Source: Crambe crambe (lineage: Eukaryota > Porifera > Demospongiae > Poecilosclerida > Crambeidae). Taken from it: 64,000 bases of DNA. The position numbers and the translations under genes are program-made. Positions 87 through 24,050 of the stretch are shown piece after piece. How positions within the stretch are numbered: position 1 is the stretch's first letter; each line of letters starts with the position of its first letter. Below the pieces are notes generated by a model. It saw only the letters and a program-made list of their open reading frames with translations, did not search any database and was not told the DNA's origin. The stretch spans positions 1,116,001-1,180,000 of the forward strand of contig OZ004598.1 in the NCBI GenBank assembly GCA_963924555.1, written 5' to 3'.

Positions 87-896
87 ATGGAAGACGAGTA
101 TGAAGATGTTGATAACATTGACGGGAATAACAGTGAACTACAAGTCTACACTGAACTACAGACATCAAATATGGACACAGTGCAAGTCCATGACAGAGAA
201 GCAGAAAGATGTAGCATCAAGAAAAATTCAGAATCTATTGATATCATCCAAGGAAGGATCAGATGTGTGACCATTGTCCTGTGTGTCTTGGGTGTGTTGG
301 GACTGGTAATGGTCACTGCCATAGCCACAGCTGCTTTGGTACTCACTCTCTCCTCCTCCTCCACACCAAATACGAGCACATGTCAGTGCCAACAAGAGAT
401 TCAAGACCTCCGACATGAAATAGCTGCTAATAGCAGAAAGATAACCAATATGAATGCCACTTTCATGAAGAGAATAGCTAATAACTCAGAGAAGGCCACT
501 AAAAATGGTGAGAGGATTGCAACTATTGTGGAGAGGGTAGCTACTTTTGGGAACGAGACAACTGCCAATGGAGATAGAATTGCTTCTATCAACACGAGTC
601 TTGCACACATTCAGAACTTCGGTAACTGCAATACAACCATAGAGACCACGTGTACAGTCATTGCTACTATTGGAATCTGTGCTACAAGATCTGTTCAATA
701 CCAGCGTCCAGGAGAGACTGTCCTAGACTCTATTTGTTTGCAGATACAACAGACAGCAGGACTAAGCCCTCTGATAGCCACAGCAGAGTTCGTGAACGAT
801 CAAATGAAATGTATTTGTCATCTATCCAACCGTTTTGGGGCAGTGGCAAATGTCGCCTGTGGTCTGCAAGTAACAAGGTGTAGAGTGATGAACTAG
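87..896 (+). CDS. Type II membrane receptor-like protein, 8-Cys ectodomain (array member 1)
   Basis: I do not recognise this family. The frame is open from position 21, but the ATG at 87 is chosen because it aligns with the starts of the closest paralogues (MEDEYEDV). The 269-residue product has an acidic cytoplasmic tail with YEDV (Tyr5) and YTEL (Tyr21), and one membrane span (about residues 61-87). A Ser run, a Cys-Gln-Cys and a helical, sequon-rich stalk follow, then a C-terminal domain with eight cysteines ending CGLQVTRC. There is no signal peptide, so type II orientation is inferred. The second tail tyrosine of the paralogues is His here (VQVH). Single exon. The ectodomain is the most divergent of the MEDEY subgroup. 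A receptor role is inference from architecture and array context. Confidence 0.8.
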   Translation: MEDEYEDVDNIDGNNSELQVYTELQTSNMDTVQVHDREAERCSIKKNSESIDIIQGRIRCVTIVLCVLGVLGLVMVTAIATAALVLTLSSSSTPNTSTCQCQQEIQDLRHEIAANSRKITNMNATFMKRIANNSEKATKNGERIATIVERVATFGNETTANGDRIASINTSLAHIQNFGNCNTTIETTCTVIATIGICATRSVQYQRPGETVLDSICLQIQQTAGLSPLIATAEFVNDQMKCICHLSNRFGAVANVACGLQVTRCRVMN

Positions 897-1318
897 TTCA
901 TAACTGTTATACTGCATAGTATCATCATGCATAGATGTACACACACTCATTCCTTTCGTTTACAGTTGCTAGCTGTTTACATGTACCCACTTATACATTA
1001 CTTTGAATCAGCAGATTGAAATCATCATTTAAAGGGGGCTAATAATTATCTGCTTGTGGCAAGTATTTTCTAGCTAATGAGCTAAAGTGAGTGAAAAGGG
1101 ACCTCCAGGGACCAATGTATTGATGTTTACTATGTAGTGTTGTTATTATAGTTCTGCAGTTTTTGGAATAGCTAATGGTTTGTGTTTATGAAGACGAAAA
1201 GGTCATAACACAAAATCCCCAATATTTTTTACTGCAGCCTCACATCGCTACATTTACATCCATTATCGAGCATTGGTTATCCCTACATTTTAAAAAGTGT
1301 TCTCTCCCTTATTATAAT

Positions 1319-2246
1319 ATGACTGCAACTCTCATGGATTCATGGAGAGGATAGCTAATAATTCAGAGAAGGCTGTTAACGATGGTGAAAATTGCTTCAT
1401 GTAGGGATTGTTATAATTATTCTATTGATATTACATTCACATCAAATCAAGTTAGTCAAGTAAAATGTTTTCAAATGAATTACATGTGAATGTTGTCTTC
1501 CCTTCATAACATTAATGCTTCAGTAGATGTTTAACTTGTCATAATTAGCGAGTACCTGCAGAAACTCTGGTACACACCTTCAGTTATTCTACTGATTGTA
1601 ATGTGCAAACAAAATTTAATTATGCGAATTTTTTGATTTTAACTTTTACCCTTCACATTATGGTGCTTATTCTTCCTTTTCACATGCATTAATTTGTAGT
1701 GAGTCTGACTATCCATCTAACACCATGCCACCAGTCCACCAAGGTACCGCAGAAACTCTGCACTTGAATGTGTGTGTGCAGTGAGTAGTTAGCAATCCGG
1801 GCTTGTACCATGGGATCGAGTCCTACCAGGGGTACAAGTTGAAATCAAACTGAATTAAGTTTCTCAAAATACACGTTTAAAGTTAGTGTAGATGCACGTC
1901 AAGAGGATTGCAATTATTATGGAGAGGGTAGCTATTTTTGGGAACGAGACAGCTGCCATCTATCAACACAAGTCTTGCATACATTCAGAACTTCGGTGAC
2001 TGTAATATAACCACAGAGACCATGTGTACAGCCTTGGCTGCTACTGGATTCTGCGATACAAATTTAGTTCGATACCAGCATCCAGGAGAGACTGTCCTAG
2101 AACAAAACCCTCTGATAGCCACAGCAGAGCTCGTGAACAATGAAATGAGATGTGTTTGTCATGTACTCAACAGTTTTGGGGCACGGGAAAATGACGTCGT
2201 GTGTGGTCTGCAAGTAACAAGGTGTGGAGTGATAACTAGTTCATAA
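1319..2246 (+). pseudogene. Decayed array-family copy, interrupted by about 500 bp
   Basis: Positions 1319-1399 match the stalk-coding part of array members (NAT sequon, then ANNSEKA). The match resumes at 1902 and runs through the 8-Cys domain to a stop ending at 2246. The roughly 500 bp between (1400-1901) do not match and look inserted. No tail or membrane-span sequence precedes the relic. A 20-base gap in the stalk changes frame relative to the paralogues. A second gap removes the fourth conserved cysteine (VLEQNPL where paralogues have VLDF, Cys, then NPL). The distal domain (GFC, CVCH, CGLQVTRC) is still readable, which suggests recent decay or a donor role in gene conversion; the latter is speculation. 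Confidence 0.75.
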
Positions 2247-2262
2247 ACTGTTAGTGTCATCA

Positions 2263-3060
2263 TTCATACCAAAAGTCTTTGATCCTTATTCAATTGATAT
2301 AACTGTTGTATATTTGGTGAGAAAAGTGCATGCATACCATCTATATAGTGGTGTAAATACATCACCTTGTGCAGGTGAAATGTTGGATCCATAGAACGGT
2401 CTACAGAATCCTACAGCAGCTAACAGTGGCCATTGTGCATGTATCTTCCTTTGCACTCCATCACGTGCTTGTAGTAATTAGTGGATCAACTTAATTATGA
2501 TAAGTGAGCGCGAAAAAATTTCTCTTCTAAATAAATAGGTAAGTAGCAATGTACTGCAGCCTCGGATGAAAAATCAATCCCTACATTTATATCCACTGCC
2601 TATAGCTAGCTAATGATCCTGATGACGTGTCACGAAGGAACCACACACTCAGACATAAGTGGGAAAAATCAATGTTCTTTTACTTTTTTCTTATGATACC
2701 AACACTGTTTGAGCCCACAATGGAAATGAGGTCTATGTGAGCCTCCGAATTTCCACATCGTAAGTAGCCATCAATGAAATCTGACATCATGAGCATGAAC
2801 AGCTCAGCTACATGTATGCACCACTGCTTACAAATCAAATACCTGTGATTGATGAGCCTACTAGCTATTATTGAGTGAACATAAACAGCTCAGCTACATG
2901 CATGTATGCATTGGGGTGTCTACTGGAATGGACTACTGGACTGACCTTTCACCTTAAACTCGTCAATAGAGATAGTTTAGCTCACTACTAAAGTTTTCAA
3001 TGACAAGTTTATATAATAGCTGTAACATAGCTAGCTAATTATTTTGATCCTAGCTAATAC
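2263..3060 (+). repeat. Duplicated array spacer, copy A
   Basis: This spacer before member 2 matches 5640-6340 before member 4 over most of its length (shared GATAAGTGAGCGCGAAAAAA, ACTACTGGACTGACCTTTCA and more). Parts recur at 8415-8510 and 9190-9260. It marks the borders of the duplication unit that built the array. Confidence 0.8.
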
Positions 3061-3139
3061 TTTCAGTTAGGAAAAAACAACAAAAAACAAGCTACTATTC
3101 CCTAATTTCTAAAAGTTCTAGCTGGAGTTCTTCAATAGA

Positions 3140-3970
3140 ATGGAAGATGAGTATGAAGATGTTAGTAACATTGATGGAAATAACAGTGAACTACAAGTCT
3201 ACACTGAACTACAGACATCAAATATGGACACAGTGCAAGTCTACAACACATCAAAGAGAGAAGCAGAAAGATGTAGCATCAAGAAAAATCCAGAATCTAC
3301 TGATCTCATCCAAGGAAGGATCAGACGTGTGACCATTGTCCTGTGTGTCTTGGGTGTGTTGGGACTGGTAGTGGTCACTGCCATAGCCACAGCTGCTTTG
3401 GTACGCACTCTCTCCTCCTCCTCCTCCTCCTCCACACTAAATACGAGCACATGTCAGTGCCAACAAGAGATTCAAGACCTCCGACATGAAATAGCTGCCA
3501 ATAGCAGAAAGATAACCGATATGAATGCCACTTTCATGGAGAGAATAGCTAATAACTCAGAGAAGGCCACTAAAAATGGTGAGAGGATTGCGGTTATTGT
3601 GGAGAGGGTAGCTACTTTTGGGAACGAGACAACTGCCAATGGAGATAGAATTGCTGCTATCAACACGAGTCTTGCACACATTCAGAACTTCGGTGACTGC
3701 AATACAACCATAGAGACCATGTGTACAGCCTTGGCTGCTATTGGATTCTGCGTTACAAGTTTTGTTCAATACCAGCATCCAGGAGAGACTGTCCTAGACT
3801 TTAATTGCTTGAGGATACAAGAGACACCAGAACTAAACCCTCTGATAGCCACAGCAGTGCTCGTGAACAATGAACTGGGATGTGTTTGTCATGTACCCAA
3901 CAGTTTTGGGGCACGGGCACATGACGTCGTGTGTGGTCTGCAAGTAACAAGGTGTAGAGCAATGAACTAG
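3140..3970 (+). CDS. Type II membrane receptor-like protein, 8-Cys ectodomain (array member 2)
   Basis: A 276-residue single-exon member that serves as the reference copy. Tail residues 1-63 carry YEDV (Tyr5), YTEL (Tyr21) and YNTS (Tyr35). A basic stop-transfer stretch (GRIRR) precedes the membrane span at about 64-88. Ser and Thr residues follow to 104, then a helical stalk at 105-183. Sequons start at N101, N129, N138, N162, N175 and N188. The C-terminal domain (about 184-276) has Cys187, 195, 204, 223, 248, 250, 265 and 272, enough for four disulfides. The start ATG at 3140 is shared with member 4. The first 126 residues differ from member 4 at one position, the last 125 at 17. No database family is recognised. 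Confidence 0.85.
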   Translation: MEDEYEDVSNIDGNNSELQVYTELQTSNMDTVQVYNTSKREAERCSIKKNPESTDLIQGRIRRVTIVLCVLGVLGLVVVTAIATAALVRTLSSSSSSSTLNTSTCQCQQEIQDLRHEIAANSRKITDMNATFMERIANNSEKATKNGERIAVIVERVATFGNETTANGDRIAAINTSLAHIQNFGDCNTTIETMCTALAAIGFCVTSFVQYQHPGETVLDFNCLRIQETPELNPLIATAVLVNNELGCVCHVPNSFGARAHDVVCGLQVTRCRAMN

Positions 3971-4477
3971 TTTGTAAACTTTATCAAATGATATTTCATA
4001 CATATTATTCTTAATTATTATTCAATTTATAAAAAACTTAGGTCAGCAGACAACATTTGGCAAACAAAGTACATGCATAGTGATACATCACCTTGTGCTG
4101 GTGAAATGTCAGATCCACTGAACAGATCTACAGCATTGCACTTTTATTCATTCATGTTAGAAATCACTGCATTGATATGTATAGCTGCTCACCTGAAGGA
4201 ACTTAACTACTCTATTGTCATCTGGATATCTTATATACCTGACATGTACAACACTAACATATTTAGCACTTGTACACTAATTTATTGCATTCAAAAAGAT
4301 TCTAATCATGCTTTATTGAATATAGGAACATTGATCAGGAAAAAAAGACCTATATTTGCATGAGGCTAGCTAAAGCATGAAAAGGGACCAGCTCTCTTTA
4401 ACACAAGACATTTCTGTGAAATGAAGGGATAACCATTGCTCGAAAAAGTAAGGAAACAAGGGTAGGGATGAAGGATG

Positions 4478-4597
4478 CACTGTAAAAACAAAAGTGTTTA
4501 CTGCACACCATTTTGTCCCAATACACACACTGTTTTTGTTTTTGGTGTGTGTATTGGGACAATTTAGTGTGCAGTACACACTTTCGTTTTTACAGTG
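4478..4597. mobile_element. 120-bp palindromic MITE (filled site)
   Basis: Near-perfect foldback with ends CACTGTAAAAAC / TTTTTACAGTG around a short centre near 4533. The same flanking sequence without the element occurs at 11436-11510 (GAAGGATGGAAATGGG), so this is a clean insertion that duplicated TG. No coding capacity. Confidence 0.8.
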
Positions 4598-4730
4598 TGG
4601 AAATGGGATCAATCTTTGTTGTATTGTGTTAGTAATGTTTTGGGACAATACGGTTTGTTTTTTCAGATCTACAAGTCAGCTCTTTTAGATAGAATCGGCA
4701 TATTAAGAATAAGTTCTAGATCTATTTGAT

Positions 4731-5353
4731 ATGGCAGAAGAGTATGAGATCATTCAATTGAAGGCTATACAAGTAGTGAATGATCGTGGATCTAAAGGGC
4801 ATCACAAGGAACTGCAAGTATATCCAGCAGGGAAAGGGGACAGGTTTACCAAACAAGCAGCTTGAAGGCAAGAAGTAGTGCTCAAGATCAACATTCTGGT
4901 ACATCCAAAGAGTACGACAACAAACCATAAGTCTACGAAAAACTGCAGACATCCAGCAGGGAAATGGAGCATGTTTATCAGAAAAGTAGCTTGAAGACAG
5001 AAGGCAGTGCTCAAGATCAAGACTATATTACCATAGATAATTATGAATCTAAAAGGTATGACAATGAACCACAAGCACAAGTCAGTGGGGAAACTGATCA
5101 AATTTACCTCACACCAAACACTGCTTGTGACTTGAAAGCGAATGAAAGTGTTCCAGATAAGGATCAAAGGATCGGACCTATGACCATTGTCCTGTGTGTC
5201 TTGGGTGCCTTGGGACTGGTAGTGGTCACTACCATAGCCACAGCTGCTTTGGTACTCACTCTCTCCTCCTCCTCCTCCACCACACCTAATATGACTGCGC
5301 ATCAGGTCAGAAATCGTACTACCATCTCCATGTTGACGATCTTTACCATATAA
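4731..5353 (+). pseudogene. Truncated array-family copy (tail and membrane span only)
   Basis: The ATG at 4731 opens MAEEYEII, matching the EYE start motif of the family, but the frame is soon lost. Recognisable tail modules continue in other frames: VYEKLQTSSREMEHVYQ and, further on, IYLTP. The membrane span (TIVLCVLGALGLVVVT) is intact in the frame open at 4964-5353, followed by the Ser run. The match then stops in unrelated sequence with no stalk and no 8-Cys domain. Its tail is of the longer, member-6 type rather than the MEDEY type. It is most likely a 3'-deleted, frameshifted copy. Confidence 0.75.
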
Positions 5354-5639
5354 TTTACTTTAGCGTTCTCCTGTAGTAGCGGCAAGCCTTGATTGCAGAG
5401 ATTAGTGTACAGGCATTATGTGCTTCAGATGAGCTGTATACAGGATTTTGCGAGCTTTTTGCAACGTTGAATTATTAACGTACTTTCTGAGTATGCGCAG
5501 TTTTAAGGTTACCAAGCCAATTGTTGAAGATTCAGTTGTCATGCATATCTTCACTGTAAGCTTTTGTGTGGTATGGCTCGCAGGATACCATATCTGCCGC
5601 AGATAGGTTGTGGAGTGATGATTCTATGGCCTAAGTAGC

Positions 5640-6340
5640 ATAGCAACTGATTCAATACTTATTCAATTGATATAACTGTTGTATATTTGGTGAGAAAAGT
5701 GCATGCATACCATCTATATAGTGGTGTAAATACATCACCTTGTGCAGGTGAAATGTTAGATCCATAGAACGGTCTACAGAATCCTACAGCAGCTAACAGT
5801 GGCTATTGCACTCCATCACGTGCTTGTAGTAATTAGTGGATCAACTTAATTATGATAAGTGAGCGCGAAAAAATTTCTTCTAATGGCATAATGTGTGATC
5901 CTGATGACGTGTCATGAAGGAACCACACACTCAGACATGAGTGGGAAAAATCAGCTGTGGCTGTGTTCTTTACTTTTTTTTCATGATACCAGCACTATAT
6001 TTCACAATGGAAATGAGGTCGATGTGAGCCTCTGAATTTCCACATCGTAAGTAGCCCTGAATGAAATCTGACACCATGAGCATGAACAGCTCAGCTACAT
6101 ATAGTGCACCACTGCTTACAAATCAAATACCTGTGATTGATGAGCCTACTATTATTGAGTGAATATAAACAGCTCAGCTATACATGTATGCACTGAGGTG
6201 TCTGGATTGGACTACTGGAATGGCTACTGGAATGGACTACTGGACTGACCTTTCACCTTAAACTTGTCAGTAGAGATAGTTTAGCTCACTACTAAAGTTT
6301 TCAATGATAAGTTTATAAAATAGCTGTAACATAGCTAGCT
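5640..6340 (+). repeat. Duplicated array spacer, copy B
   Basis: Homologous to 2263-3060 with small indels. It ends exactly where a CAGTGTTTCC-type element (6341-6784) has inserted between the spacer and the leader of member 4. Confidence 0.8.
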
Positions 6341-6784
6341 CAGTGTTTCCTCTAGGGTCAAATTCAAACAGGGTGGCAAAGCCAATCAGCTGCATGGCAG
6401 CTGCAGGGGGAGGGGGATGTGCCCCCTCCCGGCAGAAGCAAGAAAAGAGATGAATCTTTTGTGGTCTCAGTTAGCTCATTTGATGTGAATAACAAGTCAA
6501 GTGTATTAAATTTGTAGCTTTCTTTTTCTTCTTTCATTTAGAAATTGATTTAGCCAGGCTGGATCGAATCCACTTCCCCTGTGGTGGACCAGAATCTGGG
6601 TCAGAGCTGAACTAGTAGTAGGGCTACTAGTGCTAGTTTCTGATAGTTGTGGTAGTGTTAAGTGATTGTGGTATGTAACTTTATGTATGTGGTTAAAGTG
6701 GCATCTACTGCTGTGCTAATTAGCCAGACTACAAACCACAGTGATTAATTCCTGGAACTACTATTGCCAAACAGGGAAACACTG
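6341..6784. mobile_element. hAT-like non-autonomous element, 444 bp
   Basis: Ends CAGTGTTTCC and GGGAAACACTG are inverted repeats of the hAT type. Both sides are flanked by CTAGCT. The matching spacer before member 2 lacks it. No transposase frame. It sits between the spacer and the start of array member 4. Confidence 0.7.
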
Positions 6785-6800
6785 CTAGCTATCCTAGCTA

Positions 6801-6820
6801 ATACTTTCAGTTAGGAAAAA
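6801..6820 (+). promoter_or_regulatory. Conserved leader block of MEDEY-type array members
   Basis: The block ATACTTTCAGTTAGGAAAAA recurs 60-80 bp upstream of the ATG of members 1 (about 10-30), 2 (3058-3077), 4 (here) and 5 (10298-10317), with one or two changes. It contains a pyrimidine run and CAG, so it may be the acceptor of a 5'-UTR intron; a promoter element is the alternative. Conservation alone may reflect recent duplication. Confidence 0.35.
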
Positions 6821-6880
6821 ATAACAAAAAATAAGCCTTCATAGCTATTCCCTAAGTTCTAGCTGGAGTTCTTCGATAGA

Positions 6881-7711
6881 ATGGAAGATGAGTATGAAGA
6901 TGTTAGTAACATTGATGGAAATAACAGTGAACTACAAGTCTACACTGAACTACAGACATCAAATATGGACACAGTGCAAGTCTACGACACATCAAAGAGA
7001 GAAGCAGAAAGATGTAGCATCAAGAAAAATCCAGAATCTACTGATCTCATCCAAGGAAGGATCAGACGTGTGACCATTGTCCTGTGTGTCTTGGGTGTGT
7101 TGGGACTGGTAGTGGTCACTGCCATAGCCACAGCTGCTTTGGTACGCACTCTCTCCTCCTCCTCCTCCTCCTCCACACTAAATACGAGCACATGTCAGTG
7201 CCAACAAGAGATTCAAGACCTCCGACATGAAATAGCTGCCAATAGCAGAAAGATAACCAATATGAATGCCACTTTCATGGAGAGAATAGCTAATAACTCA
7301 GAGAAGGCAACTAAAAATGGCGAGAGGATTGCAATTATTATGGAGAGGGTAGCTACTTTTGGAAACGAGACAACTGCCAATGGAGATAGAATTGCTTCTA
7401 TCAATATGAGTCTTGCACACATTCAGAACTTCGGTGACTGCAATACGACCATAGAGACCATGTGTACAGTCATGGCTGCTACTGGATTCTGTGCTACACC
7501 TGTGATTCGATACCAGCATCCAGGAGAGACTGTCCTAGACTTTATTTGTTTGAGGATACAAGAAACACCAGAACTAAACCCTCTGATAGCCACAGCAGAC
7601 CTCGTGAACAATGAACTGGGATGTGTTTGTCATGTACCCAACAGTTTTGGGTCACAGATACATGACGTCGTGTGTGGTCTGCAAGTAACAAGGTGTAGAG
7701 CAATGAACTAG
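6881..7711 (+). CDS. Type II membrane receptor-like protein, 8-Cys ectodomain (array member 4)
   Basis: A 276-residue single-exon protein collinear with member 2. It has tail tyrosines 5 (YEDV), 21 (YTEL) and 35 (YDTS), a span at about 64-88, a stalk and all eight cysteines. It lies in a duplicated block with member 2: the two starts are 3741 bp apart, of which 444 bp is a DNA element inserted upstream of this copy. The tail, span and proximal stalk are almost identical to member 2. The ectodomain differs at 17 of the last 125 residues, eight of them within residues 197-210. The strong half-to-half contrast suggests conversion of the 5' half, selection on the 3' half, or both. Confidence 0.85.
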   Translation: MEDEYEDVSNIDGNNSELQVYTELQTSNMDTVQVYDTSKREAERCSIKKNPESTDLIQGRIRRVTIVLCVLGVLGLVVVTAIATAALVRTLSSSSSSSTLNTSTCQCQQEIQDLRHEIAANSRKITNMNATFMERIANNSEKATKNGERIAIIMERVATFGNETTANGDRIASINMSLAHIQNFGDCNTTIETMCTVMAATGFCATPVIRYQHPGETVLDFICLRIQETPELNPLIATADLVNNELGCVCHVPNSFGSQIHDVVCGLQVTRCRAMN

Positions 7712-8026
7712 TTCATACACTTTATCAAATGACATTTCATAATATATTTACATATTATTCTTCAATTTATAAAAAAACTTAGGTCAGCAGAGCAAACAAA
7801 GTACATGCATACCTATCACCTTGTTCTGGTGAAATGTCAGATCCACAGAACAGTGTATGGGTGATCTACAGCACCTATCAGTGGCCATTGCACTTTTATT
7901 CATTCATGTTAGAAATCACTGCATTGAGATTTATAGCTGCTCACCTGAAGGAACTTAACTACTCTATTGTCATCTGGATGTCATACCTTACATGTACAAC
8001 ACTAGCATATGCACTAATTTATTGTA

Positions 8027-8314
8027 TGAAAGGAAAAAAATTTATGCTAAATAAAAAGCCCATGTAGGGTTAGCCTGTACTTTAACAGTTTCTGTCAACA
8101 AAAATCAAAATAATGCTGCCTTCAATAATAATCCCTACATCACTGCCTAAACCAAGCAGAACACTTTTATACTGACATGAACAATTAAAGCAGCTTGGTG
8201 GGAGGCAGTGATGTAGGGATTATTATTGAAGGCAGCTTTTTGTCAACAGAAACTGTTAAAGCACAGGCTAACCCTACATGGGCTTTTTATTTAGCATAAA
8301 TTTTTTTCCTTTCA
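8027..8314. repeat. Foldback (inverted repeat) element, about 288 bp
   Basis: Left arm from TGAAAGGAAAAAAATTTATG pairs with the right arm ending CATAAATTTTTTTCCTTTCA, with small bulges and a loop around 8150-8185. No coding frame. The left arm overlaps the 3' end of the spacer shared with member 2. Confidence 0.75.
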
Positions 8315-8929
8315 CTTGTTAATCCTTGGCACACATGCATGAGTGAGGATTACGGTAGTCCATTACCACTTAATAAGTGAAGTAGTTTGTCTTGAGATCG
8401 AAACTAAAGTACCAACACGAACTTAAACTGTTTGAGCCCACAATGGAAATGAGGTCTATGTGAGCCTCCGAATTTCCACATCATAAGTAGCCCTGAATGA
8501 AATCTGACACCATTATTGCTTGATCAAACACAATCCATCTGATCAATAAAAAGTTGACTCTTCATGGTAAACTTTAGATTGTGAAGGTTGCAGTGATGGA
8601 GTTAAAGATGACGAAGGGGTTACATTTTGAGCATGCTGATTGTCATATGGTTGCTAAATTGTTGCCTATCCTCCACAACATCTTCCCTCTCATGTCCATC
8701 AAAATATACACCCTTACTGAAATGGTGGTAAGTGAAGCCGATGTTGAGATTGCAACACCCCATTCCATTGCGGATTATGATTAGATGAGGCTCATTCCTC
8801 TTGTATCCATGTCCCCTGATATATTCCCATGCAGAAAGAATGTTTACCCCTAACTCCTCAGTCGTAATAAATTACATGGATCTATAAAGTCATCCCTATC
8901 ACCACATTAGAATAAGTTTTAAATGGGCT

Positions 8930-9037
8930 GTGAATGATTGTGGATCTAAAGAGTATCACAATGAACTGCAAGCCAATACTGAACTGCAGTCATCCAGCAA
9001 GGAAAAGGAACAGGTTTACCAAACAAATACCAATGTA
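8930..9037 (+). pseudogene. Relic of an array-family cytoplasmic tail
   Basis: Translation in one frame reads VNDCGSKEYHNELQ and then NTELQSSSKEKEQVYQT. This matches the YTELQ / QVYxT tail module of members 3 and 6, with Tyr replaced by Asn in the first motif. Upstream bases also resemble the leader of the truncated copy at 4731. No membrane span or ectodomain follows; after about 9040 the sequence passes into repeats shared with other inter-gene spacers. It is a dead fragment of a seventh or later duplication unit. Confidence 0.6.
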
Positions 9038-9099
9038 TGATTGATGAGCCTACTAATTGAGTAAGCAGCTACATGTATGCACCACTGCTTACAAATCAA

Positions 9100-10190
9100 G
9101 CCATTCCAGTAGTCCAATCCAGTGAATTCAGACACCCCTAGTAATTTTTGTTTAACACTAGAAGTGCTAGTCTCGTATACATGCCACAGACCCGGGTGTC
9201 TGAATTCACTGGACTGGATTACTGGAATGGACTACTGGACTGACCTTTCACCTTAAACTTGATACATTGTTGCAACTTAAAATTACTGGGCAGTAATTAT
9301 TGCTGGTGGCTACACTAGTATATTTGTTTAACACACACTAGAAGTCAGACCCTGGTACATGTGAAACTATAGAAGTTTATATCAAAGCACTAATTAATTA
9401 CTACTAGCTAGTAATTAGTAATTGTAGTAATTACTGGTAGCTACATTAGTAATTTGTGCATATCATCTTTCATGCCTCTGAATGACACTTGTTGTCTTGC
9501 ACAAAAAATGGTAAGGCCCAGTCAGACACCCAGATCATGAGGGTAGATTTAGCATATTCGAAAGGGACCAATTCTGATATGTAGCCTATCCTATGGCCAT
9601 GGATGAAGGGAGTTGTGTCCCTAGGGAGTCCTGACGCCATCCAACTAGTAGCAAATTTGGCTAGCTCTTAGCTACAAGCAGCAAACATATCTTCATCTAG
9701 TAGATTCCATGGACCAATGCATGTTGTCTGAATATTGACTTTGAGCATGCTTTTGAAGTTGTGAAGTTCCCCTATACATCAGCCACTGGTGACTGGACTA
9801 CTGGGGAGGGAGGAAGTGGAATGGAGGGGAGCGACTTTATTTTATGCTAAACCTTCATCTAGTAGATAGCTCCATTTTTTGTGCAAGATAACAAGTGTCA
9901 TCAGCCTCGTTCCCAGGCCTATTTTTAAAATAGGCCTGGGAACGAGGCTATTCTAGTGCTAGACAAATTACTAGTGTAGCTGAAGCAATTACTGCAATTA
10001 ACTAGCTAGTAATCCCTTAGTGTAGACATTTATCCCTTCTATAATCTCGCATGACTACCACTTCCAGTGTTAAACAAAATTACTAGTGTAACTTGGTTAA
10101 CTTCCAGTATTCTAAGTGGCTATGATGTCACAAACTAATTTTGTGGTCAAGTTTAAGTCAGTCCAGTAGTCCAGTCCAGTGAATTCAGAC
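9100..10190. repeat. Spacer with repeated inverted CCAGTAGTCCAGTCCAGTG blocks
   Basis: The block pairing CCAGTAGTCC with GTGAATTCAGACACCC occurs at about 9105-9140, inverted at 9190-9240, and again at 10158-10190. It corresponds to the ACTGGAATGGACTACTGGAC motif in the array spacers at about 2930 and 6215. Short fragments of TAGCTAGC repeats fill the rest. No gene seen. Confidence 0.6.
9903..9949. repeat. Perfect short palindrome with GCCTCGTTCCCAGGCC
   Basis: Two arms of AGCCTCGTTCCCAGGCCTAT face each other across a few T/A bases. Related single arms occur near 40440 and 46336, so this looks like a dispersed repeat family end or a tiny MITE. Confidence 0.7.
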
Positions 10191-10375
10191 ACCCAATTAC
10201 TAGTGTACTCACCAGTAACTACCTCCTTTTGACAGTTATTTTTAATTTTAGCACATTACTAAAGTTTTTAAAAACACTTAATGACACATTTAGTCAATAC
10301 TTTCAGTTTGGAAAAAACAACAACAAAAACAAACAAGCTTTCATATCCTTAAAAGTTCTGGAGTTCTTCAATAGA

Positions 10376-11156
10376 ATGGAAGAAGAGTACGAAGACGTTA
10401 ATATTGATGGGAATAACAGTGAACTACAAGTCTACACTGAACTACAGACATCAAATATGGACACAGTGCAAGTCTACAACACATCAAAGAGAGAAGCAGA
10501 AAGATGTAGCATCAAGAAAATCCAGAAACTACTGATCTCGGATCAGACGCGTGACTATTGTCCTGTGTGTCTTGGGTGTGTTGGGACTGGTAGTGGTCAC
10601 TGCCATAGCTGCTTTGGTACTCACTCTCTCCTCCTCCTCCTCCTCCACACCAAATATGAGCTGTCAGTGCCAACAAAAGATTCAAGACCTCCGACATGAA
10701 ATAGCTGCTAATAGCAGAAAGATAACTGATATGAATGCCACTTTCATGGAGAGAATAGCTAATAACTCAGAGAAGGCAACTAAAAATGGTGAGAGGATTG
10801 CAATTATTACTTTTGGGAATGAGATAGCTGCCAATGGAGATAGAATTGCTTCTATCAACACAAGTCTTGCACACATTCAGAACTTCAGTGACTGCAATAC
10901 AACCGTAGAGGCCATGTGTACAGTCTTGGCTGCTATTGGATTCTGCAGTACATACTTCATTCAATACCAGCGTCCAGGAGAGACTGTCCTAGACTTTAAT
11001 TGTTTGAGGACACGAGAACTAAACCCTCTGATAGCCACAGCAGAGCTCGTGAACAATGAACTGGGATGTATTTGTCATGTACCCAGCAGTTTTGGGACAC
11101 GGGCAAATGACGTCGTGTGTGGTCTGCAAGTAACAAGGTGTAGAGCAATGAACTAG
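10376..11156 (+). pseudogene. Frameshifted array-family copy (member 5)
   Basis: The ATG at 10376 starts MEEEYEDV, with YTEL and YNTS motifs as in members 2 and 4. Relative to them, one A is missing after the SIKK codons and ten bases are missing just before the membrane span. The combined 11-base loss puts the tail out of frame with the span, stalk and 8-Cys domain, which stay open to the stop at 11156. Everything from the span onward is intact, including all eight cysteines, with a distinct hypervariable segment (CSTYFIQY). There is no ATG just upstream of the span in its frame (the frame begins at a GTG). It is a recent pseudogene, a polymorphic null or an assembly error. Confidence 0.75.
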
Positions 11157-11486
11157 TTCATAAACTTTATCAAATGGCATTCCATATTATGTACATCAAA
11201 TTTATAATTGGTAAAACTCAGATAATATTTGGCGAACAGTGTATACCTATAATAATAGCTACATCACCTTGTCAGATTCAGTGTATGGGTGATCTTTTAT
11301 TGTTTGTACAAATCACTGCATTGAGATATATAGTTGTTCACCTGAAGGAACTTAGTTCTCTATTGTCATCTGGATATCAGTACTATGTATACAAGTAAGG
11401 GAAAATATTTCCGTGAAATGAAGAAAAAAAAAGCCATTGCTCGAAAAAGTAAGGAAACAAGGGTAGGGATGAAGGATGGAAATGGG

Positions 11487-11590
11487 ATCAATCTTTGTTC
11501 TGTATATCCAGCCAACAATCCCTACATATACATCGGGTAGCTTCAGATTATACAGGGATTGTTGGCTGGATATACAGAACAAAGATTGGT
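11487..11590. repeat. Foldback element, about 104 bp
   Basis: ATCAATCTTTGTTCTGTATA to the left and its inverse ending AAAGATTGGT to the right, with arms of about 40 bp around CATATACATCGGGTAGC. It lies directly beside the empty site of the 4478 MITE. Confidence 0.75.
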
Positions 11591-11716
11591 CATAACATTA
11601 ATGCTTCAGTAATTTTATGCCATCAATGGATAAGCTTCAGATATACTCTCTTATTTGTATGTTTAATTTGTCATATAACAAATGTGCAAAAAGGAAGTGC
11701 AAAAACCAGATACAGT

Positions 11717-11912
11717 GCAAAAAGGAAGGCAGCCAGATATATACTTTGAAGGTCACCTTTAACCACAGGGTGCATTTCTTAAACATGTACAGCACTTCCT
11801 GTTTTGATAGACCTGCAAAAAGGAAGGCAGCCAGATATATACTTTGAAGGTCACCTTTAACCACAGGGTGCATTTCTTAAACATGTACAGCACTTCCTGT
11901 TTTGATAGACCT
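11717..11912 (+). repeat. 98-bp direct tandem duplication upstream of member 6
   Basis: Two identical-looking copies (11717-11814 and 11815-11912) begin GCAAAAAGGAAGGCAGCCAG and end TTTTGATAGACCT. Each carries an ATG; the second (11883) is in frame with member 6, the first is followed by a stop. The duplication may therefore have made an upstream reading frame in the leader. Confidence 0.85.
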
Positions 11913-11969
11913 GCAGCAGATGAGTCATTGATACCACATGCCATCACACCAATAAAAGCCCATCTACCA

Positions 11970-13145
11970 ATGGCAGCTCAGTATGAAGATATACTTTCAA
12001 GAGAAATGGCTCAAAAGCAACTGAGAGGAATGCTGGAAGTGGACAATTGTAGACCAGAAAGACAAAAACACGAATTCTACACTGAACTGCAGTCATCCAG
12101 CAGGATAACTGAGCAGGTTTATCAAGTCCCAAATGCTGGCTGCTTCAAAGTAGAAGATAGTGCTTCAGGTCGAGATTCTGATAATGAATCACAAGTCTAT
12201 ACTAAGCTGCAGCCATCCAGCAGAGAAAAGGAGCAAGTTTACCACACACCAAATCCAAGCAGCTCAAAAGAGGATGGCAGTTCTCCAGGTCAAGATTCTA
12301 GCAGTGTCACTAGCCATAAATCTGAAGAGCAGAGGAAAAAATCCACTGAACTGCAGCAATCCAGCTGGGAAACCAAGCAAGTTTATCAGACACCAAAAAC
12401 CAGCAGCAGTTGGAAAGATAATGGTATTCCAAGCACTCCAGATCATATCAAAGTGTCTAGTGATCTTATCCAGGGAAGGATCAGACCTGTGACCATTGTC
12501 CTGTGTGTCTTGGGTGTGTTGGGACTAGTAGTGGTCACTGCCATAGCCACAACTGCTTTGGTACTCTCTCTCTCCTCCTCCTCCTCCTTCTCCACACTAA
12601 ATACGAGCACATGTCAATGCCAACAGGAGATTCAAGAACTCCGACACGAAATGGCAATCAGATTAGCTGTTTATGACAGGAGGATAGCCAATTATACTGA
12701 AATGACCACTTTACTGAAGAAGGTAACTGAAACAGCTGTTAATAACACTGACAATATCAGTGGTATCAGGAAATCAATAAATATATTTGCAAACAGGATA
12801 CTTGCCAGTGAAGAGAGAATAACTTCAGTTGCTAACCGCACGCAAATCCAAAACTTGAATCATCAGAGCTGCAATACATCAATAGAAGTCAATTGTACTG
12901 TTACGGTTGGTACTGGCTTCTGTTCAACAAGTCTCATTGAATACCAGAGACCAGGAGAGTTCGTGCTAGACTTCATTTGCTTGAAAGTGATGCAGTCACC
13001 AGACGTAAATCCACTGATAGCCACAGCCGAACTCATTAATAATGAGATTGTATGCTTCTGTCACGTGCCCAACTTCTTAGGACACCAACAACAAAATGAC
13101 TACACATGTGGTTTGCAAGTGACAAGATGTAGAGTGGCCAGCTAA
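11970..13145 (+). CDS. Type II receptor-like protein with multi-tyrosine tail (array member 6)
   Basis: The 391-residue product starts at the ATG at 11970 (MAAQYEDIL), which aligns with the EYE start of the family. An in-frame ATG at 11883 would add 29 residues but lies in a 98-bp duplicated leader. The tail is about 170 residues long and built of repeated modules pairing a YTxLQ motif with a VYxxP motif: Tyr37 (YTEL), Tyr51 (YQVP), Tyr77 (YTKL), Tyr91 (YHTP), Ser125 (STEL, tyrosine lost) and Tyr139 (YQTP). The span is at about 173-199, then a stalk with several sequons and the 8-Cys domain ending CGLQVTRC. Spacer residues are Ser- and Lys-rich. YxxP resembles Crk-type SH2 docking sites; this is inference. 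Single exon. Confidence 0.8.
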   Translation: MAAQYEDILSREMAQKQLRGMLEVDNCRPERQKHEFYTELQSSSRITEQVYQVPNAGCFKVEDSASGRDSDNESQVYTKLQPSSREKEQVYHTPNPSSSKEDGSSPGQDSSSVTSHKSEEQRKKSTELQQSSWETKQVYQTPKTSSSWKDNGIPSTPDHIKVSSDLIQGRIRPVTIVLCVLGVLGLVVVTAIATTALVLSLSSSSSFSTLNTSTCQCQQEIQELRHEMAIRLAVYDRRIANYTEMTTLLKKVTETAVNNTDNISGIRKSINIFANRILASEERITSVANRTQIQNLNHQSCNTSIEVNCTVTVGTGFCSTSLIEYQRPGEFVLDFICLKVMQSPDVNPLIATAELINNEIVCFCHVPNFLGHQQQNDYTCGLQVTRCRVAS

Positions 13146-13483
13146 CTGAACCCATCCACAATGACATGCATAAAACTAAACATAGCGAGAATTAATTTTC
13201 ATAAGGAAACATTTTAAGTGTATATAACATGTAGCAAGAAATTTTTGTGGGTAAAATCTTCATGGATTATATCAATTCTCTCAATTTGACCCACAATCAA
13301 CTATATGTATAGGACAATGGCTTAGTAACCATAAACCATACTGTAAAGATGACTTAATGGCACATAAGGATAACTATATTTCACAAGCATCAACAGCTGC
13401 ATGGGGATTATCAAGACTTATCAAAAAACAACAACAACACACACAAGAATAAGTACAGAAACTGACTGTATAATGTCACGCTA

Positions 13484-13756
13484 ATGGCTACCCAGGAGGT
13501 ATATGACCTCCCTCTAGTTAAGAACAGTGCTGCTAAGGCTACCCAGGAGGTGTATGACCTTAAGAACAGTGCTGCTGAGGCGGTATATGACCTTCCTCTA
13601 GTTAAGAACAGTGCTGCCATGGAGGTATATGACCTCCCTCTAGTTAAGAACAGTGCTGCTAAGGCTACCCAGGAGGTGTATGACCTTAAGAACAGTGCTG
13701 CTGAGGCTACCCAGGAGGTATATGACCTTCCTCTAGTTAAGAACAGTGCTGCTAAG
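13484..13756 (+). repeat. Coding minisatellite: six YDL(P) units of member 7
   Basis: Units of 51, 42, 39, 45, 42 and 51 bp each encode VYDL plus KNSAA. All lengths are multiples of three. Short units lack the codons for PLV; variants in the unit start include GCTACCCAGGAGG or none. In-frame-only length variation argues that the tail is translated. Confidence 0.85.
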
Positions 13757-14582
13757 AATACATCAGCTGAATGCATAGCAGTTGCCAGTGATGAAAATGC
13801 TTATACCACACTGGCACAGTCTACCAGAGAGTTGAGCACAGAGTATACCAAATCAACAAGTGCCAAAGGAGCAAACTGGAGCAAGTACCAGAGTAAGTAC
13901 TAGTGTGTTAAACAAGGATAATTCCACAGCAAGCATGGGTGTGTTGAAGGATAACAGTGTACCTGATGGTGTCCAACAGAGCCAGTGTCGTATCAAAGGC
14001 AATACCTACTGTCATGTGACCTGTCATGTGATTTGTTGTGTAATAGGCATGCTGTGGATGCTAGCAGTCACAGCTTTGGCCACAGCTGCTTTGGTTGTAT
14101 CCCTCACTAACACAAACACAGATCTACTTTTCCAGTGTCAAGTGAAGAGTCAAGGAACTGAGACTAATGATACAGGGGGAACTGTAACAGATGCTGGTGG
14201 AATAATGATGACAAGTGCAGAGAGAATCTACTCTTCTGTGTCTCGAAGATTGAACTGCCTGGAAGCGATTCTTACTAAAGTCAGAAGTTCCTTACAGATA
14301 CGAAATTGCTCCACATCAATAGAAAATATATGTACTGTGGACCGTCAAGTTCGATTCTGCACAACAAGTTTTATTCAATTCCAGCGACTGGGAGAGTTGG
14401 TGCTGGACTTTATCTGCTTAAGAGTGGAAGAGACACCAGAACAAAACCCTCTGATAGCCACAGCAGAGATCATTAATAACTTCATTGCATGTATTTGTCA
14501 TGTGCCTGACATTTTAAGGCAGGAGCAGCAGCATGACGTCAAATGTGGCTTGCAAATGACAAGATGTAAAGTGGTGAATTGA
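13484..14582 (+). CDS. Type II receptor-like protein with YDL(P) repeat tail (array member 7)
   Basis: The ATG at 13484 opens a tail made of six repeats with YDLP at Tyr7, 35, 49 and 80 and YDLK at Tyr24 and 66, then YTTL at Tyr107. The span, stalk and complete 8-Cys domain lie in another frame, open to the stop at 14582. A GTAAGT donor at 13893 and a TTCCACAG acceptor ending at 13929 would remove 37 nt and join the frames exactly, giving 353 residues. That is shorter than any other intron I can place here (shortest 55 nt), so a plain frameshift is the alternative. The stalk is short and lacks the heptad-like repeats of members 2 and 4. The DNA repeats are all multiples of three. Confidence 0.65.
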
Positions 14583-15130
14583 CTGAGGACAATCAATCAT
14601 ACTCATCACTGTGAAAGTGGAAGCGAATGGCTATATATGTACTGAGGTCATCATCTTTATTTTTGCTTGCTGCATGCCTTGATATATTTCGTACAGTGCA
14701 ATTGTTGTGGATTCCATGGCTTGGAATAATGAAATTTTACCCACAAAAAATTCACCCCACAAAGATTTCCCACTGCACACCATGCTGGCCTTGGGCAGTG
14801 CATGACTAATATGAGAAAGGGGGAAACCATTCTGAAACTAAAGTTAGAAGGAAATATGTAGGATGTGAATTAGTGGTGTTAATGGAGTCTTGGAGCTGAC
14901 TCACTGGCTGCAAAGTGTAAGTGATGAATTGTACCCCTTGACAAGGGATGGGGGGATTCTAAGTCACCTTAATTGGAAATGAAGTACCAGAAAATGGAAC
15001 TAACAAAGAGTACCTTAGAATCAAGATTACTACCAATTAGCCCTGGCAGGTTATGTATACACTCCATATTAGTGGCTTTAATGTTTTGACTGGTACCCAA
15101 CCCAGGAAACCACGTGCTTCCATGTATCTT

Positions 15131-15138
15131 TATAAAAG
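15131..15138 (+). promoter_or_regulatory. TATA box of array member 8
   Basis: TATAAAAG lies 82 bp before the end of the 5' leader of the gene starting at 15220, a sensible distance for a short untranslated leader in a single-exon gene. Confidence 0.5.
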
Positions 15139-15219
15139 CCAAGCAATAACTGATACTACTGTATCTATAGAGAGTAGCAACAAACCTACTGCATTAGAAA
15201 TAGATTAATAACTTCAAGT

Positions 15220-16017
15220 ATGAATGACATAGAGGCACAAGAGTATGAAGTTCCGACCTGGTCTATTCCTATAGATCAAGATGATAGTGATATAGACTAC
15301 CACCAAGTGGAGAGGCCTTTAGGACATGGTGAAGCTGATAACAATGATGAACCCAATGTCTATACCACACTCCAACCTAGCACGCAACTACCTGTGCAAG
15401 TATACAGCAATGAAGGATGTAATATTATTCCAAAGAAGAATATGAGTGGGACGAACAATATGGACTCTTTTCCAACAAAATCCGGTGGGAAAACTTTGCG
15501 TATCGTCCTGTGTGTGTTGGGTACGCTTGGAGCAATATTACTTACAGTACTGGTTGCCACACTAGCCATCATTGCCCTGGCAGTTGCAATTCCAGAATCA
15601 AGTACCAGTACTACTGATGCAAACATGAGTCCTGATATGACTCAAAACCTCAACTCAAGCCAAGAACTCAGCTCCTTGATGAAGGCTGTGAAAGACTTAA
15701 ACTCAAGACTAGAAGGGACGGTACAATTACGTAACTGCAACACATCCATAGAAGCAACCTGTCTTGTTCCCGCACGTCTTATAAGTCAGTGTACCACCAA
15801 TGAGGTTGAGTATCGGAGAAAGGGGGAGCTCGTGACAGACTTCAATTGCTTGATAGAAAGAAGTGGAGGAGAAACAAATACTGTAGTTGTAACAGCCGAG
15901 ATGAGAGAGAATGCCATCAGATGCAACTGTGCTTATTCGAGTATCCTTAATGGAAATAACGCTTTACGTTCCTCGATCCGCTGCAGACTACAGATAACCA
16001 GGTGTGAAATGAATTAA
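15220..16017 (+). CDS. Divergent type II receptor-like protein, 8-Cys ectodomain (array member 8)
   Basis: A 265-residue single-exon protein starting at the ATG at 15220. Its tail has YEVP (Tyr9), YHQV (Tyr27), YTTL (Tyr48) and VYSN (Tyr62). The span is at about 95-124. The stalk is short (about 125-170). The 8-Cys domain has Cys173, 181, 191, 210, 235, 237, 255 and 262. Overall sequence has diverged, but the CNTSIE start, the C-x-C pair and the C-terminal ITRC are kept, so this distant member defines what is essential in the domain. A TATA box lies 82-89 bp upstream. It is the last array member before the chromatin-gene region. Function unknown. Confidence 0.8.
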   Translation: MNDIEAQEYEVPTWSIPIDQDDSDIDYHQVERPLGHGEADNNDEPNVYTTLQPSTQLPVQVYSNEGCNIIPKKNMSGTNNMDSFPTKSGGKTLRIVLCVLGTLGAILLTVLVATLAIIALAVAIPESSTSTTDANMSPDMTQNLNSSQELSSLMKAVKDLNSRLEGTVQLRNCNTSIEATCLVPARLISQCTTNEVEYRRKGELVTDFNCLIERSGGETNTVVVTAEMRENAIRCNCAYSSILNGNNALRSSIRCRLQITRCEMN

Positions 16018-16863
16018 CTAACATACAGAATAGTCATCTCAAATGAATGTCCAATGGTTGAGTATACATACATGCAAACATACATACATACACACATCAA
16101 TACTTAATGTCTTTGCTTCAAGTGTTTTTATGTGCTTCCTCTCTCCGAATATGAACCAGATGTTTGTTGTCAGAGAGAGAGAGCTGACTTAATTGTGGCA
16201 CGCCACTTCATGTAAGCACATCCTCTGAATATGTGTATTTCACATGTGACCTAGACCTTCGATTTTGTAGTAGAGAAAAATATACGGTAGGGGTTGGAGC
16301 CGTATCCAAAGTAGCTTAACCTGTACCCAGCTCTCCATAATTAGCTACTAGGGAAATGCAAAGCATTGTGGGGCGAGCGCGCATGTTCAGTTTACCCAAG
16401 GGGTCATCATGGAAATAAACTACAATGTTAGGATGGATGTATGTACGATATATATAAATAATTATAGTACATATTTATACATTTGCATATGAGGGTGAAA
16501 GGTCATCGTCACTAGGTAACTTGTGTGGTCAGATTAGTAAATGCCTAACTTTGAAGATAAGATAGATACATTTATACTTTTGGCTATAAAATGTTTTGCA
16601 TAGGAGGGGGTGGGTTCCTCTCCCACACCCTCACTTCATTGTGACTGTATAAAATCCCTGTCTCCTGGGAAGAACCTAGCAGTATTCCTTAGATTGAACC
16701 ATACATTATGCAGTATTCAGAATCTTATGAAGCAGTATTGAACCTTATCTTATGCAGTATTCACTATCTTATGAAGCAGTATACTTTACCTTGAACATTC
16801 ACTAGATTACAGAATCTTGTGAGACCCAAGATTACAGAACCAGTATTCTTTAGATTACAGTAC
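16018..16863. other. Gene-free stretch between the receptor array and the last HELLS exon
   Basis: I searched this stretch on the minus strand for the missing HELLS exons and found none. It holds ATACATAC repeats (16060-16100), a CA/TG-poor AT-rich middle and a locally repeated CTTATGAAGCAGTAT / TTAGATTACAG pattern (16680-16860) right at the donor of the last visible HELLS exon. Confidence 0.6.

Positions 16864-24050
<7,187 letters not shown>

Follow-up and report, generated by a model that had tools for sequence, protein, structure and literature searches.

Type II C-type-lectin-like receptors such as Dectin-1, CLEC-2 and Ly49 have a short tail with tyrosine motifs, a signal-anchor span, a stalk and a disulfide-bonded C-terminal domain, and their genes are clustered. 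The same features are read from a tandem gene array of the sponge Crambe crambe, part of which lies in C21:1116001-1180000 of its genome. This stretch of 64,000 nucleotides is the window analyzed here, and plain coordinates (e.g., 3140) are window positions on the plus strand. Tentatively, and at not quite an even chance, the array is read as a family of type II cell-surface receptors, arranged in tandem and still changing, that would be oligomeric, would signal through phosphotyrosine and would serve recognition by means of an apparently undescribed domain. Type II immune receptors share this plan, and any novelty would lie in the domain, for which no described relative was found.

In the array proteins, the type II topology, the stalk and the tyrosine-motif tail are indicated by open reading frames (ORFs), alignment, and motif and periodicity statistics. 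In contrast to the C-type-lectin-like receptors, the array genes are intron-poor and have their own cysteine spacing. No C-type lectin domain was detected by Pfam in six window proteins, two upstream proteins and 11 domains, and matches to the Ly49 N-terminal region were below the cut-off (E 0.23 and 0.54). An earlier sequence-only reading of this DNA had drawn the parallel with lectin-like receptors while noting no lectin signature, and at the level of sequence both observations hold.

SRCR receptors are reported to be expanded in Amphimedon queenslandica (PMC10855680). Like the array, sponge SRCR receptors have tandemly expanded, cysteine-rich extracellular domains, and group B SRCR domains contain eight cysteines, as does the array domain. 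The array proteins differ in carrying a single cysteine-rich domain, placed terminally on a type II protein, and no SRCR family was matched by Pfam up to E 1 in the family proteins and domains scanned. Tetherin (BST2) resembles the array proteins by plan, as it is a type II, coiled-coil, disulfide-linked protein, but without a terminal cysteine-rich domain. The tyrosines of the hemi-immunoreceptor tyrosine-based activation motif (hemITAM) in its tail are reported to signal on clustering (PMC4161388).

By its proposed role, the array can be likened to sponge aggregation factors and to fuhc/fester of Botryllus, which are proposed or known variable self/non-self surface proteins (PMC5450542). The same source reports that sponges discriminate self from non-self at high specificity and that, in an Amphimedon graft study, aggregation-factor adhesion genes were not significantly enriched (PMC5450542). 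A compact, intron-poor array whose tails carry tyrosine motifs, and in which change centres on an uncharacterized domain, would be a concrete candidate for a self/non-self receptor system. To our knowledge, the self/non-self receptors of sponges are not settled; in Hydractinia, the Alr genes are allorecognition genes and offer a further parallel to the array.

Copies and common plan of the array

Ten copies (intact, broken or partial) of intron-poor genes lie at 87-16017, all on the plus strand, as determined from the ORF list, translations and tblastn. The sequence-only reading had placed ten copies at or near these positions, and the array proved to be larger. Copy counts are lower bounds, because the genome search scores only the best candidates. 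The protein of 3140 is 34–93% identical to the other window copies, with E <1e-5 for all but one listed match, and on these scores, the likeness is not due to chance. The window copies are as follows.

87..896, plus strand: intact copy, type II protein of 269 residues (ORF)
1950..2237 (about), plus strand: 3' fragment with the stalk end and the domain; a deletion removes the fourth cysteine (tblastn, translation)
3140..3970, plus strand: intact copy of 276 residues, the reference (ORF)
4731..5353, plus strand: 5' fragment with a broken-frame tail and the span, without the domain (translations)
6881..7711, plus strand: intact copy of 276 residues; tail and span DNA near-identical to 3140 (ORF, binned identity)
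8930..9035 (about), plus strand: fragment, tail alone (translation)
10376..11156, plus strand: broken copy, frameshifted in the tail; open from 10536 through span, stalk and domain (ORFs)
11883..13145, plus strand: intact copy with a long tyrosine-motif tail, 420 residues (start 11883) or 391 residues (start 11970) (ORF)
13484..14582, plus strand: ORF pair 13484-13903 and 13935-14582; tail with repeated VYDLP/K units (ORFs, repeats, joined frame)
15220..16017, plus strand: most diverged window copy, 265 residues, all eight cysteines present (ORF, alignments, spacing)

An exact 98-bp tandem duplication at 11716-11911 reaches into the start of the 11883 ORF, and 11970 is more likely than 11883 to be the true start. 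The two ORFs at 13484-13903 and 13935-14582 form one frame of 353 residues if 13893-13929 (37 nt, GTAAGT...CACAG) is spliced out. This segment is a predicted intron, although such an intron would be very short, and one time in three the two frames would join by chance.

The common plan, which the sequence-only reading had proposed apart from the CxC motif and which ORFs and alignment confirmed, runs from a tyrosine-motif tail through one span to a CxC motif with a helical stalk and then to a C-terminal domain with eight cysteines. From this order, we infer a type II topology. The parts of the reference copy are the following.

3140..3334, plus strand: cytoplasmic tail with YEDV-x12-YTEL and VYNT, and RIRR ahead of the span (translation, motif statistics)
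3335..3418, plus strand: single hydrophobic span, the signal anchor (translation; conserved in the alignment)
3449..3697, plus strand: CxC and helical stalk with N-glycosylation sequons (periodicity p 0.0065; six sequons past the span)
3698..3955, plus strand: eight-cysteine domain, Cys187-Cys272, with spacing 7, 8, 18, 24, 1, 14, 6 (alignments, spacing table)

Basic residues resembling RIRR precede the span. The tails of the young copies contain YEDV and YTEL, while the 11883 tail contains YEDI, YTEL, YQVP, YTKL, YHTP and YQTP, and the 13484 tail contains four YDLP and two YDLK in tandem units. Tandem repeats at 13484-13760, with copies 42, 51 and 84 nt apart, encode these VYDLP/K units and are a possible source of length variation in the signalling motifs. 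In nine tails (gene 87, a near-copy of 3140, and two genes at C6:6389k were omitted), the class Yxx[ILVMP] holds 37 of 55 tyrosines, compared with 12.5 on average and at most 24 in shuffles, none of 2000 being as high; this margin is overstated for reasons weighed below. The tyrosine-motif tails described earlier are thus present. Motifs of the YxxL/V type resemble hemITAMs or halves of the full motif (ITAM), and YxxP motifs resemble Crk-type sites. A full ITAM has two YxxL/I motifs 6–12 residues apart, and the consensus of the inhibitory counterpart (immunoreceptor tyrosine-based inhibition motif, ITIM) has S/I/V/L at position -2. The YxxL/I motifs among the tails are YTEL, YAEL, YTKL, YTTL and YEDI; in YEDV-x12-YTEL, the first half carries V, and residue -2 of YTEL is Q.

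Helical periodicity was significant in four of the six stalks tested (p 0.001–0.0065). Three to eight sequons were found past the span in each of the eight full-length family proteins counted, and one was found in a shortened copy on C9.

The array continues upstream to about C21:1,096,483, approximately 20 kb beyond the start of the window. As a whole, it comprises copies and fragments that together number about 17 in about 36 kb, and eight of these are single uninterrupted frames. The upstream members are listed below.

C21:1,096,483: partial copy without the domain
C21:1,103,766-1,104,896: copy of 377 residues; the stretch matching 3140 is 29% identical
C21:1,107,259: fragment
C21:1,108,086-1,109,072: copy of 329 residues
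C21:1,110,127-1,110,795: copy of 223 residues with most of the stalk missing
C21:1,112,786-1,113,619: copy open from the tail onward, 5' part uncertain
C21:1,114,444-1,115,086: broken copy

The eight-cysteine domain and its relatives

The domain of 3140 has about 90 residues and the pattern C-x7-C-x8-C-x18-C-x24-C-x-C-x14-C-x6-C. All eight cysteines are kept in each of the 13 full-length domains tabulated, with C-x7-C, C-x-C and C-x6-C constant. This set includes two remote relatives on C6 and 15220, the most diverged copy, in which the domain had been said to be retained. The table leaves out the 1950 copy, the broken upstream copy (C21:1114444-1115086) and the fragments at C6:366k and on C1 and C9. 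In a tree of the 13 domains, nine of the ten inner branches are unresolved.

No known domain was found above the Pfam cut-off in the family proteins. Ten of 11 domains gave no Pfam match at all up to E 1, and the remaining one matched DUF2161 (E 0.039). Among PDB sequences, there was no significant match; a single-sequence search gave E 1.5 outside the domain, and a profile search gave three matches at E 0.6–0.9. These results agree with the earlier statement that the domain could not be matched to a known family, and they suggest that it has no described relative in the libraries searched; novelty of the fold is not claimed. If the fold were new, the known recognition domains of animals would gain a member from close to the root of the animal tree. 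No described sponge family with this plan was met in a literature search at the level of listings and abstract openings.

Several candidate matches were rejected. Weak Pfam matches, among them those to Spectrin, Ly49, DUF1068, TarH, CorA, MBR1 and UL45, were below the cut-off and lay mostly over the tail, span or stalk of full-length proteins. A match of the C6:308k protein (listed below) to Cap15_CD_rec (E 0.0024) was likewise below the cut-off. A prokaryotic or viral origin was discarded, since none of 12 GTDB and 8 IMG/VR pattern matches was a relative by tblastn.

Relatives and fragments were found elsewhere in the genome.

C6:308664-309749 (C6:308k): remote relative with a span, a stalk-like stretch, eight cysteines and a long tail with tyrosine motifs
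C6:916182-916859 (C6:916k): remote relative with a span, a stalk-like stretch and eight cysteines
C6:366502-366796: family fragment
C1: domain fragment, 79% identical over 58 residues
C9: shortened copy

The two remote relatives are about 22% identical to 3140. C6:308k was matched by the array profile at E 6e-8 for 25,000 proteins, and its domain alone scored 38.2 bits, compared with a maximum of 12.3 in 497 scored of 500 cysteine-keeping shuffles. In single-protein searches, the C6 copy was linked to the array at E 1.3e-4 and 0.023. With the array profile, C6:916k was borderline (21.1 bits, maximum 19.5 in 500 cysteine-keeping shuffles); it is counted as a family member because it matches C6:308k at E 3e-15.

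A search of a database of 5.8 billion proteins returned seven proteins, none of them shown to come from another species; the collections searched cover few animal genomes, and restriction to sponges cannot be inferred from this result. The proteins 3140, 6881, 11883 and 13935 were not among the five returned by the main query, which could be explained by haplotype absence, gene prediction or search sensitivity. Six of the seven proteins are identical to frames of this genome at every residue compared (the first residue excluded), and one, P0003, differs. The 15220 protein corresponds to entry P0006, which has three member sequences, the longest on a contig of 2,101 bases; this may be sponge DNA in a metagenome.

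Other type II genes were observed on C6. In C6:305001-313000, two tail-span frames (minus strand, 1244-2530 and 5066-5812) lie beside the remote relative at 3661-4752; their ectodomains are different or missing, with only weak Pfam matches below the cut-off, and they may form another clustered group of type II surface genes. In C6:6386001-6393000, two type II genes that lie in tandem on the minus strand (2600-3946 and 5307-6542) have YxxP tails, a span and a stalk. Their ectodomains match COLFI below the cut-off (E 6e-5 and 1e-5), so that the plan is the same and the domain is another. No claim is made of shared descent of tail and span between this pair and the array (E 0.9 only).

Rates of change and readings of the array

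Codon models gave an omega (ratio of non-synonymous to synonymous rates) of 0.96 for the tail and span (six copies), 0.55 for the stalk and 1.40 for the domain (seven copies each). With intact ORFs only, omega was 0.60 for the stalk (four copies) and 1.33 (five copies) and 1.42 (four copies) for the domain. The difference between domain and stalk corresponds to twice the log-likelihood difference (2 delta lnL) of about 7.9, or about 4.9 in the four-copy intact set; all 2 delta lnL values were calculated from printed likelihoods, some of which came from a grid. The domain thus appears to evolve faster than the stalk, and it is fair to call it fast-evolving. In Nei-Gojobori comparisons of the 28 pairs of eight copies, omega exceeded 1 in nine pairs for the domain, one for the stalk and six for the tail and span (one of these with a synonymous divergence, dS, of 0).

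The database protein P0003, from an ENA contig of 1,078,142 bp, is a near-allelic version of gene 87 (93% identical). In the domain, 16 of 91 residues differ between the two, against 1 of 177 in the remainder (Fisher p 1.5e-7); there is also one indel. Some residue states of P0003 are those of other copies; therefore, conversion may contribute. P0001, P0002, P0004 and P0005, whose contig has the same size as that of P0003, are this genome's copies at every residue compared (first excluded), which, unlike P0003, counts against high polymorphism of the domain. The second haplotype of Crambe crambe was deposited as contigs (PMC12166358). Within the window, 3140 and 6881 show one non-synonymous and zero synonymous differences over the 93 codons of tail and span, but five synonymous differences each in stalk and domain (dS 0.08–0.09), which fits conversion of the 5' half.

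The architecture of the family is well supported. We infer the function, while the DNA itself shows the plan, the conservation of the cysteines and the unequal rates. If the proteins are receptors, the CxC motif and the stalk would form disulfide-linked oligomers that keep the domains clear of the membrane. The domains would bind a variable ligand, either microbial or on cells of another individual. Binding would cluster the receptors, the tail tyrosines would become phosphorylated, and SH2 proteins would be recruited. As copies are duplicated, lost or converted in their 5' half, and as the domain changes more quickly, specificity could then turn over while the signalling half stays constant.

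A number of results weigh against this receptor reading. The class Yxx[ILVMP] was picked after viewing the tails, and these are related to one another and contain internal repeats; for this reason, the shuffle test is overstated; C6:916k shows no tyrosine-motif tail past the first ATG of its open frame. The four periodic stalks belong to close relatives, and the stalks of 11883 (p 0.06) and C6:308k (p 0.27) failed; the glycosylated helical stalk of the sequence-only reading stands for the sequons and for part of the stalks. The excess of the domain omega over 1 is not significant (2 delta lnL about 2.5 with seven copies, and 1.9 and 2.3 with intact ORFs only), and positive selection was dropped as a firm claim. 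Of the earlier hypothesis of a fast-evolving surface recognition family, the term fast-evolving is retained for the domain relative to the stalk, and recognition stays a hypothesis. In the four-copy set, the stalk omega is not significantly below 1 (2 delta lnL about 2.6). Gene 87 or the broken copy 10536 takes part in every one of the nine domain pairs with omega above 1, and the seven pairs with 11883 have a domain omega of 0.25–0.33. Omega is also near 1 in the tail and span, and relaxed constraint may explain part of the pattern. Conversion between copies breaks the assumptions of the tree model. Finally, P0003 was compared as protein only and may represent a paralogue or contain converted segments.

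Part of this evidence would fit a rather unlikely account in which the array is partly decaying and drifting, with a few constrained genes and a redundant, relaxed fringe, so that the variation would have no recognition role. With 13484/13935 taken as one gene, four of the ten copies in the window are broken or partial, and with it taken as broken, five are; the domain omega is compatible with 1, its excess involving gene 87 and one broken copy, and the tail and span give 0.96. However, the seven-copy stalk omega of 0.55 is below 1 (2 delta lnL about 5.3–5.6), the eight cysteines are retained in all tabulated full-length domains, and relaxation should scatter the differences between P0003 and gene 87, which are almost confined to the domain. 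It is doubtful, though with a real chance and compatible with the other readings, that the domain belongs to a known fold (SRCR, lectin-like or another) and has diverged too far for its sequence to show it. Short disulfide-rich domains shed sequence similarity fast, and two full-length proteins weakly match the C-type lectin-like UL45 (E 0.013 and 0.0048, below the cut-off). Nevertheless, these matches cover the span and stalk, the second comes from a shortened copy, and the Pfam and PDB searches of the domain described above also speak against a hidden relative.

The proteins are unlikely to be membrane-anchored ligands or adhesion proteins that show their domain to a receptor on other cells and use the tail motifs for trafficking. 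Membrane-bound ligands, too, are built as type II proteins in which an oligomerizing stalk bears a small C-terminal domain, YxxL/V can be endocytic, and the sequence results do not separate ligand from receptor, but the long tails with repeated YxxP/YxxL units (11883, 13484) look more like signalling scaffolds. A role in gamete or larval-settlement recognition, instead of immunity or allorecognition, is very improbable; reproductive proteins, too, typically have surface domains that change quickly, and nothing specific was found for or against it. The receptor reading can also be extended to a sponge allorecognition locus, with haplotypes that differ in the number or versions of receptors and a domain of undescribed fold that would read conspecific or symbiont surfaces and signal through phosphotyrosine; this extension is improbable.

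Sequence between and beside the copies

Between the copies, an inverted repeat at 8027-8314 has arms of 78 nt that are 96% complementary and lie 132 nt apart, like a small transposable element. An interspersed repeat at 1579-1903 has matches on many contigs among the best candidates scored. Downstream of the array, exons on the minus strand begin near 16.86 kb and extend over about 16855-20837; they read like a Snf2-family helicase, which we presume them to encode.

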